A model generated the notes under the pieces. It saw only the letters and a list, made by a program, of their open reading frames with translations, did not search any database and was not told the origin of the DNA. Of a DNA stretch of 64,000 nucleotides, positions 3,049 to 64,000 are shown piece by piece. The position numbers were made by a program, and so were the translations under genes. Location: NCBI GenBank assembly GCA_903916675.1, contig CAIWXQ010000018.1, positions 62,001 through 126,000 on the forward strand. The letters are read 5' to 3'. Position 1 is the first letter of the stretch. Every line of letters begins with the position of its first letter. This DNA is from an uncultured bacterium (GTDB lineage: Bacteria > Verrucomicrobiota > Kiritimatiellia > RFP12 > CAIWXQ01).

Positions 3049-3135
3049 GGCGGCGATTATCCTCGCGCCGGAGCCGACGTCAAGCGCCGACGCGCAAGAA
3101 CTATACACGACGCCAGAAATTCTTGCGGCGGTTCA

Positions 3136-3189
3136 GGTAGGGACGCCTCTCCGAGGCGTCCGCGGACGGCTCGGAGAGCCATCCCTACC
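3136..3189. repeat. 54-bp double-hairpin repeat, copy 1
   Basis: Outer arms GGTAGGGAC and its imperfect complement ATCCCTACC enclose two inner hairpins, (GGAC)GCCTC-TCC-GAGGC(GTCC) and GGCTC-GGA-GAGCC, joined by the palindrome GTCCGCGGAC. The same 54-bp design recurs at 37475 and 47815. Here the element lies between queF (minus) and the prepilin gene (plus). Copies differ by compensated changes in the hairpin arms, which argues that secondary structure is selected. Confidence 0.9.
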
Positions 3190-12033: not shown

Positions 12034-14610
12034 TCAAGTGGCTGGCCGGGTGCGCGGCAGGCCGGGCAGGTTGGGCGGCGACCAGAGAAAATCGGTGCGG
12101 AACCAGCGTACGCTGTTGCGGCGCAGGACCGGCAGCGCAGCGGCTTGCGAGAAGGATTCCTCCGCGACCGTCACCCAGCGGTTGTCGAGCCGGTGGACCA
12201 CCAGCCGTCCGCCGCGGCGGTTGACTAATCTCCAGGGAGGCGGGCGTTCGCTGGCTACCATTGGCGGCGTTTCGGAGAGGAAGAGCGGCGTGTGCTGCCA
12301 GGCCAGCACCTCGACTTCCGGGCCTTCCTGACTGGCGAACGAGGCGATGTTCTCTTCCGTATCCTCGGGTGCGGCCACGGCGCGCGCTATGCCCAGTTCG
12401 GCCAGCAGGCCGCGGGCGGCGTGGTTCAGGCCATAGAGCGACCAGTCGGCCGTGAGGTGCAGTGGTTCGCGGGTCGCATCGCGCAGCATCTGCCAGCCGC
12501 CCAGACCGGCGCACTCCCACTGCCGCCAGCCATCCGCCAGCAGTGCGGCGATCGTTGTGCGCAGCACCTCTTCCTCCGGTTGACGCGTCACGGCCGGCAA
12601 CGCCAGCCGCAGCCGTGCACGTGGCGCCAACTGCAGCCAGGCTTCCAGTTGGGCGCGAACCGCATCAATGGCCTGATGCCCCAGATAAAGGACGATCTCG
12701 TCCGCCGTGGCCAGCGCTTCCACCGGCGGCAGCGCGAGGTCAACCTTGACCGTCCAGTGCGCAGCCTCGGATTTCGGCGCGACAGGTTCGCCGGCTCGTT
12801 CCACGATGCCGAATGCGGCGCAGGCAGCGGTGCGCCGCGCTTGCCGCGCCGCATCCCATTGCGTGCGGAGCGCGTCGAACAGCTGGCGCCGCGCCTCGTT
12901 CAGCACGGAAACGGGAACGAACAACCCCTGCGGATCGTCCAGTTCGAGCGTTGCCACCTGCCACGGGGTGTCGCCGGAACGCTCGAGCGCACGTCGGAGC
13001 GCAGCTACGGTCTGCTCCGGCTGGCGTGCGGAAGAGAGAGACAATGCGGAGGAGAATGTGGCGGAAATTGCAGGGGCTGGGACACAGTGGGCACGGACGG
13101 GGGTTGGGACACAGAGGTCACTGAGGGGAGATGAGGGCATAGAGGGATTTTGATCCGCGGCAGGCAGCATTCTCTGTGTGCTCATCTCCGCTCGGTGTTC
13201 ACTGTGTCCTGCGCATGTACCTGTCTCCGGCGTATCTGCCAGCACCGTGGCAATGAGCGTCATCCCGTCCGGCCGCAGGGTGGCCTGCACGCGCACCGGC
13301 CGTGTGAAGCGGCAGTCGGTGGGGCGTGGCAGCGTCGCCTGGTAGTGGCGGCGCACGGCCTGCGAGGCGGAGCAGAAGACCGTGGTGCCGTGTGGAATCT
13401 CGGGGATTTCGCCGTCGTCGGGCAGCCGGACCTCGACGGCGTTCCCGGCCGGCACGGAGATCTCGAGGCGGCTGGCGCCGGCGCGACGCAGCGCGTCCAC
13501 GGCGAAGCCGAACGGTTTGCCGCCGCGCGCGGGGTCGATCTGCAGGCCGTCGTGTTTTTCGAGCGCGCGCCGTGTTGTAAAGCGCAGCCAGCGTCCGCCG
13601 CGCGTGTCATGCGTCACGGCATCCGCCGTGCCGATGGGCGCGCCGCGGTGGCCGACGGCCGCGGCGTCGATGATCTTCTCGGCTGGCGTCTCGCGGCTGG
13701 CGGCATAGAGCTGCGTCCAGGGGCGGCTGAAGATGGTCTGCAGGTCCTGCACGCGCGCGACTTCCTCGCTTGGCGGCAGGGTTCCATCGAGCTTGCGGCG
13801 GTAGTAGTCGGTGACGCAGGCAACATAGCAGGCATTCTTCATGCGCCCCTCGATCTTGAGGCTGGCAATGCCGCCGGCAATCAACTCCGGCGTCAGCGGC
13901 GCGAGCGCAAGGTCGCGCATGGAGAAGGGGAACGCGGTGGTCGGGGTGGCGGGGCGGTCGTGCGGGGCGGCCGTGGCGAATGGTTCGCGGCAGCAATAGG
14001 CGCAACGGCCGCGGTTGCCGCTGCGGCCGGTTTGCCGGGCCGAGAAGAGGCAGAGTCCGCTGTAGGAATAGCAGAGCGCGCCATGCACGAAGACCTCAAC
14101 CTCGATGCCCGCCTCGCGGCCGATGCGCGCGGCTTCGGCGAGCGTCAGCTCGCGCGCCAGCACGACGCGGCGGAAGCCTAGCCCGGCCAGGGCGCGGGCA
14201 CCGGCGAGATCGTGCACGGCCAATTGCGTGCTGGCGTGCAGGCGCAGGCGCGGGAAGCAGCGGCGGGCGATGAGCAGGATGCCCAGATCCTGCACGATCG
14301 CTGCATCCACGCCGAGGTCGTCGAGTTCCTCCAGCGTCTCGATGGCGTCGGCCAGCTCGCGCTCCAGAATCAGCGTGTTGAGCGTGACGTAGACGCGGCG
14401 CGGCCGCGGCAGCGCATGGGCATGCGCCACCAGCCGGCGGAGTTCCTCCGGCGTGAGATTGACGGCCTCGGCGCGCGCTGAAAAGCGGCGTAGTCCGGCG
14501 TAGACGGCATCTGCGCCGTAGTGCAGCGCGGCGCAGGCGGCGGCAAAATCACCGGCCGGCGCCAGCAATTCAGGGCGCGCGGGAGGCGGAATGGACGAAA
14601 CGGTGGGCAT
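12034..14610 (-). CDS. U32 family peptidase (DUF3656-containing) with an in-frame repeat insertion
   Basis: 858 residues from the ATG at 14610 (MPTVSSIPPPARPELLAPAG). The U32 catalytic-type domain occupies the first 330 residues: ELLAPAGDFAAACAALHYGADAVYAG split over two strands, VEVFVHGALCYSYSGLC, then the cysteine-rich RGRCAYCCREPF and SLKIEGRMKNACYVACVT. The C-terminal half is the DUF3656-type extension of YhbU/RlhA-like proteins, which in E. coli take part in 23S rRNA hydroxylation. Between VLADTPE and ARQPEQTV an extra 50-60 residues rich in Ser, Pro and Thr are encoded by a palindromic repeat (13077-13225). Frame is kept across it. An upstream extension to 14847 lacks family similarity. 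Confidence 0.88.
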   Translation of the reverse strand: MPTVSSIPPPARPELLAPAGDFAAACAALHYGADAVYAGLRRFSARAEAVNLTPEELRRLVAHAHALPRPRRVYVTLNTLILERELADAIETLEELDDLGVDAAIVQDLGILLIARRCFPRLRLHASTQLAVHDLAGARALAGLGFRRVVLARELTLAEAARIGREAGIEVEVFVHGALCYSYSGLCLFSARQTGRSGNRGRCAYCCREPFATAAPHDRPATPTTAFPFSMRDLALAPLTPELIAGGIASLKIEGRMKNACYVACVTDYYRRKLDGTLPPSEEVARVQDLQTIFSRPWTQLYAASRETPAEKIIDAAAVGHRGAPIGTADAVTHDTRGGRWLRFTTRRALEKHDGLQIDPARGGKPFGFAVDALRRAGASRLEISVPAGNAVEVRLPDDGEIPEIPHGTTVFCSASQAVRRHYQATLPRPTDCRFTRPVRVQATLRPDGMTLIATVLADTPETGTCAGHSEHRAEMSTQRMLPAADQNPSMPSSPLSDLCVPTPVRAHCVPAPAISATFSSALSLSSARQPEQTVAALRRALERSGDTPWQVATLELDDPQGLFVPVSVLNEARRQLFDALRTQWDAARQARRTAACAAFGIVERAGEPVAPKSEAAHWTVKVDLALPPVEALATADEIVLYLGHQAIDAVRAQLEAWLQLAPRARLRLALPAVTRQPEEEVLRTTIAALLADGWRQWECAGLGGWQMLRDATREPLHLTADWSLYGLNHAARGLLAELGIARAVAAPEDTEENIASFASQEGPEVEVLAWQHTPLFLSETPPMVASERPPPWRLVNRRGGRLVVHRLDNRWVTVAEESFSQAAALPVLRRNSVRWFRTDFLWSPPNLPGLPRTRPAT
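13077..13225. repeat. ACACAGAG-family palindromic repeat inside the U32 peptidase gene
   Basis: The left arm GGGACACAGTGGGCACGGAC with GGGGAGATGAGGGCATAGAG is matched in inverted orientation by CTCTGTGTGCTCATCTCCGC and GTTCACTGTGTCCTG. The same GGGACACAGAGGGCACAGAG core occurs inside lipA (39276) and at the right edge of the window (63945). Confidence 0.85.
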
Positions 14611-14906
14611 ATCCGGCAATCCGTCGGCGGAGTTGATTCGCCGGTCATCAGCATACCGTTTCCGGCGGGTGTTGTCCCGCCGGTTCGATTCGGCCAAAAA
14701 TATGCCGTTTTTGCTGATGTTTCGTGCCAACTTCTGACGGCGTGCGGCTGGGACGTGCGGCGGCAACGCGCGCCGGATTGCGGGAGAAAAAAGGATTTTC
14801 CCTGGCCGCATCTTTTTTTTATTGCATTTTCCCAATAACTGCGGCACATTCGCACCAACCGTGGGATATTTCTCACTGCACTGAAACGTTGAAAGGAGTC
14901 AAGGAT

Positions 14907-26975: not shown

Positions 26976-26985
26976 GAATTCCTCG

Positions 26986-27137
26986 TTTCACCGCGAAGGA
27001 CGCGAAGGCGCGCGAAGGGGGTAGGTTGGGTGGTTCCGTACAACACGTTGCATGCCGGCTTTCAGCACTTCTGCGGCAACCATCTCGACATCCATTCTTA
27101 TCACCTTCGCGTTCCTTCGCGTCCTTCGCGGTAAAAA
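26986..27137. repeat. CGAAG-family palindromic repeat inside the nickel transport operon
   Basis: The left arm TTTCACCGCGAAGGACGCGA (continuing AGG) is mirrored almost perfectly by TTCGCGTCCTTCGCGGTAAA. The element fills the gap between nikQ and nikO. Confidence 0.9.
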
Positions 27138-27148
27138 CAGGCCTGTAT

Positions 27149-37398: not shown

Positions 37399-37474
37399 GG
37401 GGCAAGGCTGTTAGGATGAAGCCTGTTAGGCTGCTAGGTTATGCGTCCTCCCGCTTTCCACAGAGGCTTGCCGG

Positions 37475-37528
37475 GGTAGGGACGGTTCTCCGAACCGTCC
37501 GCGGACGCCTCGGAGAGGCGTCCCTACC
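37475..37528. repeat. 54-bp double-hairpin repeat, copy 2
   Basis: Same architecture as the copy at 3136: perfect outer arms GGTAGGGAC/GTCCCTACC, inner hairpins GGTTC-TCC-GAACC and GCCTC-GGA-GAGGC, and central GTCCGCGGAC. It lies between rhodanese and the DUF192 gene. It is identical to copy 3 over all 54 bases. Confidence 0.92.
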
Positions 37529-38881: not shown

Positions 38882-39913
38882 ATGTCGAGTGACGAAAAGA
38901 ACGTGCCGGCCCTTTCCAAGCCCGCCTGGATCCGCGTGCGGGCGTCGGAAGGCGGGGCGTATGCGGAGACGCTCAGCCGCCTGCGCAGCCATCGGCTGCA
39001 CACGGTCTGCGAGGAGGCGCTCTGTCCGAACCGCGGACACTGCTGGTCGCACGGACGCGCCACGATCCTGATCCTGGGCGACCGGTGCACGCGGCGCTGC
39101 CGGTTCTGCCACGTGGACAAGCGCGAAGTGTTGCCGCCGGATCAGGACGAGCCGGCGCGCGTGGCTGCGGCAGTGGCTGCCAGCGGCCTGCGGGAGGTGG
39201 TGCTGACGTCCGTGACGCGCGACGATCTGCCCGATGGCGGCGCAGCGCTCTGGGCCGAGACGATCCGGCGCGTGAGTCAGATAGATGTGGCAGGGACACA
39301 GAGGGCACAGAGGAATACTGAGGGCACTGAGGCTCCAGCGGGCACTTGCAGTCCTTTCGGCCTGCAAGGCCGCCCGCTTCCTCAGGGTGCGCAATCTTCC
39401 TCTGTGATCTCTGCGTCCACCCCACTGTCTACTGCTCGCATCCTCGTCGAGGTGCTGGTGCCGGATTTCGGCGGGTGCGCGGCAGCGGTGCGGCTGGTGT
39501 GCGAGTCGCGGCCGGCGGTCTTCGGCCACAACCTCGAGACTGTGTCGCGTCTCTACCCTGCGGTGCGGCCGGAGGCTGACTACGCGCGGTCGCTGAACGT
39601 GCTGCGAATTGCCGCCCGGTCCGGGCTGATCACCAAGACCAGCCTCATGCTTGGCATGGGCGAGACGCGTGAGGAGATTGAGCAGACGCTGCGCGACGCC
39701 CGCGCGGCCGGCGTGCGCATCCTGTATTGTGGACAATACCTGCAGCCCACGCGCGAACATCTGCCTGTAGCGCGCTACCTGCCGCCTGCCGAGTTTGCTG
39801 AGATCGGCGAAGTGGCGCGACAAATTGGCTTCGACTTCGTCGCCAGCGCGCCGCTCGTGCGCAGTTCCTACCATGAGGAAGGGCAGTCTGCTTTTGTGCG
39901 GCAGGCGCGGTAA
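38882..39913 (+). CDS. lipA: lipoyl synthase with an in-frame repeat insertion
   Basis: 343 residues. Both cluster motifs are intact: the auxiliary cluster CX4CX5C at C43, C48 and C54 (CEEALCPNRGHCW) and the radical SAM motif CX3CX2C at C69, C73 and C76 (CTRRCRFC). The C-terminal serine motif region is RSSYHEE. LipA inserts two sulfurs into octanoyl groups on lipoyl domains. Between TIRRV (residue 131) and ILVEVLVPDF (residue 187) the usual 7-10 residue loop is replaced by about 55 residues coded by a palindromic repeat (39276-39436). The frame and all catalytic motifs survive, so the protein may be active. lipB is not in the window. Confidence 0.93.
   Translation: MSSDEKNVPALSKPAWIRVRASEGGAYAETLSRLRSHRLHTVCEEALCPNRGHCWSHGRATILILGDRCTRRCRFCHVDKREVLPPDQDEPARVAAAVAASGLREVVLTSVTRDDLPDGGAALWAETIRRVSQIDVAGTQRAQRNTEGTEAPAGTCSPFGLQGRPLPQGAQSSSVISASTPLSTARILVEVLVPDFGGCAAAVRLVCESRPAVFGHNLETVSRLYPAVRPEADYARSLNVLRIAARSGLITKTSLMLGMGETREEIEQTLRDARAAGVRILYCGQYLQPTREHLPVARYLPPAEFAEIGEVARQIGFDFVASAPLVRSSYHEEGQSAFVRQAR
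39276..39436. repeat. ACACAGAG-family palindromic repeat inside lipA
   Basis: The left arm includes GGGACACAGAGGGCACAGAG and GAATACTGAGGGCACTGAGG. The right arm is its complement (CCTCAGGGTGCGCAATCTTC, CTCTGTGATCTCTGCGTCC). A central stem GCGGGC/GCCCGC with CTTGCAG/CTGCAAG completes a near-continuous palindrome of about 160 bases. Confidence 0.9.
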
Positions 39914-47771: not shown

Positions 47772-47814
47772 GCAAACCTACAGAGGCTTACACAAGTAGG
47801 TAACCGGTTGTTCG

Positions 47815-47868
47815 GGTAGGGACGGTTCTCCGAACCGTCCGCGGACGCCTCGGAGAGGCGTCCCTACC
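47815..47868. repeat. 54-bp double-hairpin repeat, copy 3
   Basis: Identical to copy 2 at 37475 over the full 54 bases. It is placed 43 bases after the Gfo/Idh stop codon. The motif CAGAGGCTT occurs a few bases upstream of both copy 2 and copy 3. Confidence 0.92.
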
Positions 47869-48535: not shown

Positions 48536-48593
48536 CGATATTCCGCACGCAGCCAGGTAGGGTGGATCCGCCGCACAAATAAGCTTCTCCAAT

Positions 48594-48810
48594 CGAACCG
48601 CAGAACAGCAGAGTGCTGATTGTTGAAGTAAAATTTCAACACTCTGCGGTTGGGTGTTCGTCACTCTGAGGTTCGCGTGTAGATATCCCTGTGCTGGCGC
48701 ATCTCTTGGTTGAACCCGATTTCGACGAGCGAACCGTAGAACAGCAGAGTGCTGATCGTTGAGGTAACACTTCTGAACTCTGCGGTTGGTTGATCGGCAA
48801 TCTGCGGTTC
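48594..48810. repeat. two direct copies of an 80-bp palindromic repeat
   Basis: Copy one starts at 48594 and copy two at 48730. Both contain GAACCG(C/T)AGAACAGCAG, AGTGCTGAT(T/C)GTTGA and CTCTGCGGTTGG, and end with a second CTCTG(A/C)GGTTC or ATCTGCGGTTC. The ends pair as GAACCGCAGA/CTCTGCGGTT. Together with 48826-48895 they fill the gene-free stretch 48536-48963; no coding sequence is supported there. Confidence 0.85.
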
Positions 48811-63944: not shown

Positions 63945-64000
63945 CGTCAGGGACACAGAGGGCGCAGAGGAAAACTGAGAACACAGAGGGGAAGTTGGCG
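63945..64000. repeat. ACACAGAG-family repeat, left arm at window edge
   Basis: CAGGGACACAGAGGGCGCAG with AACTGAGAACACAGAGGGG matches the left arms of the copies inside lipA and the U32 peptidase gene. The right arm would lie beyond the window. Confidence 0.8.

Follow-up and report, generated by a model that had tools for sequence, protein, structure and literature searches.

A dispersed palindromic repeat, read in frame within four protein genes of a Kiritimatiellae/Lentisphaerae-type genome, with probable Rickettsia palindromic element-like behaviour

The palindrome located in the U32 peptidase gene of the window (the whole stretch of 64,000 nucleotides analysed in this study) is one of about 75 element sites recognized in the host genome by pattern and covariance model, nearly all of which were inspected in context. 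The family is most probably a short, non-autonomous palindromic repeat of the MITE/REP-like kind that is dispersed through the genome and behaves like the Rickettsia palindromic elements (RPEs). Taken together, our analyses indicate a real and apparently undescribed palindromic family, RPE-like in action though not proven an RPE. Its host is a high-GC Kiritimatiellae/Lentisphaerae-type MAG of 2.48 Mb and 87% completeness. The copies and genes referred to most often are as follows.

Window 12034-14610, minus strand: host gene encoding a collagenase-like U32 family peptidase that carries DUF3656; its start is probably the ATG at 14610, and the longest open reading frame extends to 14847
Window 13107-13209 (103 bp), no strand assigned: core palindromic element in the U32 peptidase gene, made of a short centre between two inverted arms of CACAGAG boxes
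Window 13080-13098, plus strand: degenerate extra half-arm GGACACAGTGGGCACGGAC adjoining the core, a half-site match with 3 mismatches at C18:75080
Window 38882-39913, plus strand: lipA (lipoyl synthase), TIGR00510 326.8 bits against a cut-off of 310
Window 39294-39418, no strand assigned: second window copy, in frame in lipA and adding 49 residues, from LipA aligned to relatives
Window 63951-64000, no strand assigned: third window copy, running past the window end (C18:125951-126061), model match of 100 bits
C8:50150: copy in frame in the UvrC gene
C8:53472: copy in frame in the gene of an RlmL-like rRNA methyltransferase

The palindrome at window positions 13080 to 13209, half-arm included, is imperfect and belongs to the ACACAGAG family. 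Its core is marked by half-site matches at C18:75107 (+) and 75191 (-), corresponding to window 13107 and 13191, and by a covariance-model match over C18:75107-75209 (86 bits). Folded as single-stranded DNA, the palindrome reaches -42.7 kcal/mol compared with -27.3 +/- 3.1 for shuffles (z = -5.0). Chance does not account for it, since ACACAGAG occurs six times in the window against an expectation of 1.28, and GGACACAGAGNNCACAGAG, with up to three mismatches allowed, gives 156 matches genome-wide against six for a reversed control pattern. The open reading frame from 12034 to 14847 (minus strand, 937 residues) stays open throughout the palindrome, and an alignment with 30 relatives revealed about 50 residues that only this protein has; the loop of the same-genus relative at this place is shorter and unrelated. 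The half-arm at 13080-13098 lies within these private residues and is translated with them, and it may be what remains of a second copy or a nested one. The first-pass annotation, which had described an in-frame palindrome in this gene from the letters alone, was correct on that point; its length of about 150 bases was somewhat generous for a repeat of about 100-130 bp, and the 50-60 Ser/Pro/Thr-rich residues that it expected to be added in frame are indeed added, nearer 50 in number and rich in Pro, Ala and Ser (8 P, 7 A, 6 S and 4 T of 53).

The flanking protein is a recognizable member of its family, with Pfam matches to Peptidase_U32 (PF01136, E 9.9e-67) and to DUF3656 (PF12392, E 6.8e-13), the latter beginning at profile position 48, directly after the insert. 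An AlphaFold model of the product of 12034-14568 has a mean pLDDT of 85.1 with values below 50 at residues 446-495 of the insert, which is accordingly predicted by the model to form a disordered loop between the strands at 435-442 and 502-508.

Copies of the family were gathered with a pattern search, BLAST and a covariance model, after which stretches of sequence were inspected. Each arm has the layout GGACACAGAG-NN-CACAGAG-N6..8-GAG-NN-CACAGAGG, the CACAGAG boxes being spaced at about 9.5 bp and separated by hypervariable 2-bp spacers, while the outer end of the arm is weaker (TACAMGGGTTT). Inverted arms about a variable centre are present in all 46 full copies (83-226 bp), which have no coding capacity of their own, as is typical of MITEs. 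The copy in L147 contains another, nested within it. One match, at L172:24293, proved to be a chance half-site within a gene and was left out of the copy set.

According to gene calls made with a home-made dicodon caller, only four of 71 copies lie in genes, against a coding fraction of 81% (binomial p ~ 1e-43). The rest, all intergenic, sit at a median distance of 11 bp from 3' ends; for 5' ends the median is 93 bp (p = 5e-9). They are typically 0-30 bp beyond a stop codon, a closeness to gene 3' ends that is characteristic of REPs. About seven genes even terminate within an arm, on a stop that the arm provides (mostly TGA), and gain tails such as DTEGTEES and DTETTERR. The acyl-carrier-protein gene, for example, ends within the region of the copy at 63951-64000 with the tail LDTETTERR. 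In this protein, as in cysE and the CCA-adding enzyme, the family profile is essentially complete ahead of the tail, indicating that these are insertions at 3' ends and not broken genes.

Such tight placement past stop codons, together with a strong hairpin, would be expected of a structured RNA or transcription terminator behind genes, of which the in-gene copies would be accidents. This reading is nevertheless quite unlikely. The stem is without a T-run after it and no terminator was called, divergent neighbouring genes flank 17 of the 67 intergenic copies that were scored, and no Rfam family was matched at gathering level, the only hits being sub-threshold chance matches to plant microRNAs. 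Moreover, the arms pair no better than in shuffles and show no covariation beyond them, with spacers that vary independently, and therefore conservation seems to act on the DNA sequence of the boxes and not on an RNA structure.

Four copies of this dispersed palindromic repeat lie inside genes, namely those of the U32 protein, LipA, UvrC and the RlmL-like methyltransferase. All four are in frame, adding loops of 30-50 residues to these unrelated conserved proteins, and at all four sites orthologues in relatives are free of the element, as has been described for RPE-type insertions. No gene broken by a copy was found among the copies genome-wide, so that four in-frame insertions compare with zero frame-breaking ones; in this respect the likeness to RPEs that had been suggested from the sequence fits in behaviour. 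Three apparent broken genes were rejected. At L148 an ATCase gene is followed by a gene that lacks a family match and has its own start, at L142 Dxr is followed by an M50 protease and at L297 an EamA-like protein by HipA, the partners in the latter two cases being of different families.

The claim of a second in-frame copy in the same 64 kb was also upheld, at window 39294-39418 in lipA. LipA aligns with its relatives on both sides of the insert with a 49-residue gap between, lipoyl synthases in the PDB match it as two pieces that flank the insert, and residues 145-184 have pLDDT below 50 in the AlphaFold model, from which the LipA insert too is predicted to be disordered. The empty lipA site of the same-genus genome was examined for a target-site duplication and was too diverged to define one. 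The UvrC protein of the same-genus genome has a loop extension that is unrelated to the element, and an extension of the RlmL loop is also seen in some relatives, showing that both loops tolerate changes in length. The uvrC gene has been hit twice, with one copy inside it (C8:50150) and the end of the gene within another (C8:50723, L151). That two of the in-frame copies fall in a single 64-kb window is local luck, given that the whole 2.48-Mb genome has only four.

Whether such copies are tolerated or are selected for being translatable was left undecided in the first-pass annotation. In this genome the evidence points to tolerance with purging, and survivorship of harmless insertions, and not selection for translated copies, given the strong depletion of copies from genes. 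On length alone, four in-frame insertions out of four have p ~ 0.012, a value that is confounded by purifying selection, which explains the result without any preference on the part of the element. Copies would persist where they do little harm, either in the narrow space behind a stop codon or, on rare occasions, as an in-frame insert within a protein's surface loop. Persistence in frame is possible because the boxes hold almost no stop codons, and a copy of suitable length may then be read through as a hydrophilic disordered loop. Harmful copies have presumably been purged, and the host proteins bearing inserts probably still work. The expectation that all six frames of the consensus lack stops did not hold: in the purine arm, a TGA (in the ATGAG box) closes one frame, and the mean number of open frames in the 46 full copies is 3.17 of six, compared with 1.61 in shuffled versions.

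The latter excess, a doubling over shuffled sequence, would also suit a translation-adapted family, that is, a mobile peptide module whose copies are favoured for being translatable. We regard that as unlikely, as copies are depleted from the genes of this genome, their lengths are evenly spread modulo 3 (14/17/15) instead of being multiples of three, the four intragenic insertions are read in different frames, and intergenic copies share the openness, so translation need not maintain it. Sister families in other genomes offer better, still indirect, support for an effect of translation. Related genomes carry the same boxes in shorter palindromes, and the intragenic share rises with the mean number of open frames, from 0 of 37 copies in the AT-rich G040 (about 2.1 open frames), through 4 of 71 in this genome (3.2), to 17 of 37 sampled copies in frame within called genes in G006, G014 and G019 (about 4.7); in G037, with a mean of about 4.4, two of five sampled copies are in frame in called genes. 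The host genes of sister copies include those for AraC-type regulators, GH5 and rhamnosidase proteins and CTP synthase, the last with an insert that is missing from solved structures. In an AGCCACARAG subfamily, all of about 10 distinct host genes share one reading frame (HKDFVNSVSFVA), even though a further frame (LCELCVLC) is open too; this frame bias could, however, reflect avoidance of Cys-rich peptides. It should also be considered that the sister copies were sampled by model matches and that several are orthologous and hence not independent. An intragenic share that follows openness across genomes, with a preferred frame, is therefore offered as a lead, and tolerance with purging is retained as the reading for the genome surveyed here.

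Three boxes in a row were found in 26 of 195 genomes across the phylum, with essentially no control matches. One might tentatively envisage CACARAG boxes at about 9 bp as a large, patchy palindromic superfamily in Verrucomicrobiota, some lineages of which have versions compatible with translation in a preferred frame, so that a mobile peptide (HKEHKDFVNSVSFVAK) would be added again and again to regulators, glycosidases and CTP synthase; we hold this wider picture to be possible and somewhat doubtful. One gene of G014 carries a tandem pair and a third copy, all in frame (L302:2503-2671 and L302:4153-4210). Near-identical short elements with matching flanks were observed in MAGs of different families (G006 versus G014/G019), at L295, L304, L305 and L320 and again at L300, L311 and L325, for which recent transfer, close kinship and bin contamination are alternative explanations. 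A seemingly split NDK gene in G040 (L281) consists of two NDK-like stretches with no element inside and was rejected.

That the element is mobile we infer from its dispersal, its nesting and its absence from relatives. One form of such mobility would be that of a classical REP, with a REP-associated tyrosine transposase (RAYT) as its mover. The intragenic REPs of Opitutus terrae, which belongs to the same broad superphylum, keep close to 3' ends (<20 bp), in many cases provide the stop codon and sometimes lie inside ORFs, including excinuclease genes (PMC3733652), in agreement with the placement, donated stop codons and in-frame intragenic copies of the present family, and several relatives possess RAYT-type Y1 genes. 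This origin is quite unlikely all the same. No Y1 transposase (PF01797) was found in this genome at its 87% completeness, with positive controls matched, nor in G003, G026 and G032, all of which bear box arrays, and none of 12 Y1 loci in relatives has a CACARAG array beside it. The terminal consensus, approximately TACAMGGGTTTGGACACAGAG, lacks a GTAG or CGTC tag, and the element is 3-5 times longer than the tagged REPs. The closest relative among the genomes compared, G001 of the same genus, has eight Y1 transposase matches and hardly any element copies, the reverse of this genome.

Compared with MITEs such as ERIC and the Coxiella QMITEs (reviewed in PMC10969869), the family under the preferred reading is likewise composed of short non-coding inverted repeats without a transposase of their own, mostly intergenic and occasionally fused in frame, but its arms consist of boxes in tandem instead of a simple terminal inverted repeat. 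No insertion sequence whose ends match was identified as a parent, the transposase search having covered the Y1 family, and no match was obtained for plasmid carriage. A candidate autonomous parent at L157, where half-sites lie 1.5 kb apart, was dismissed as the stretch between them holds no called gene.

Rickettsia provides the best-known in-frame palindromes, which have also been reported for Wolbachia, and intragenic REPs have been recorded in a few genomes. The literature search conducted in this study returned nothing on palindromic repeats in Kiritimatiellota. RPE-1 and the other Rickettsia elements (Ogata et al., 2000; Ogata et al., 2002), as summarised in PMC10969869, share with the present family a multicopy palindrome of roughly 100-150 bp that has entered various unrelated housekeeping genes in frame and adds tens of residues to their products. 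They differ in sequence and architecture, there being CACAGAG box arrays and a high-GC host here, and the host is a Verrucomicrobiota-group MAG and not an intracellular alphaproteobacterium. Given the differences in phylum and architecture, homology is not expected, and the two are likened by behaviour and not by sequence. They differ as well in intragenic share, which is only four of about 75 copies here, compared with nearly half as reported for R. conorii; a large intragenic share was seen solely in the sister families of G006, G014 and G019. With this low share, and with neither a GTAG/CGTC tag nor a RAYT, membership in either RPEs or REPs is unproven. An unrelated palindrome with the same behaviour in a distant phylum, and sister families whose intragenic share appears to follow stop-freeness, allow the old question of whether such repeats are selfish translatable passengers or are selected for translation to become testable across genomes.

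Other repeats were also observed in the window. A second palindrome family (GGTAGGGACG...CGTCCCTACC, about 55 bp) has three copies, two of them identical, at 3135-3189, 37474-37528 and 47814-47868, and bears GTAG- and CGTC-like ends as tagged REPs do. Two direct repeats of 90 bp with CTCTGCGGTT motifs lie 136 bp apart at 48585-48810. Inverted arms of ACCGCGAAGGACGCGAAGG, an array of a 9-bp unit in palindromic arrangement, occupy 26981-27141 and perhaps represent a related design with another box.
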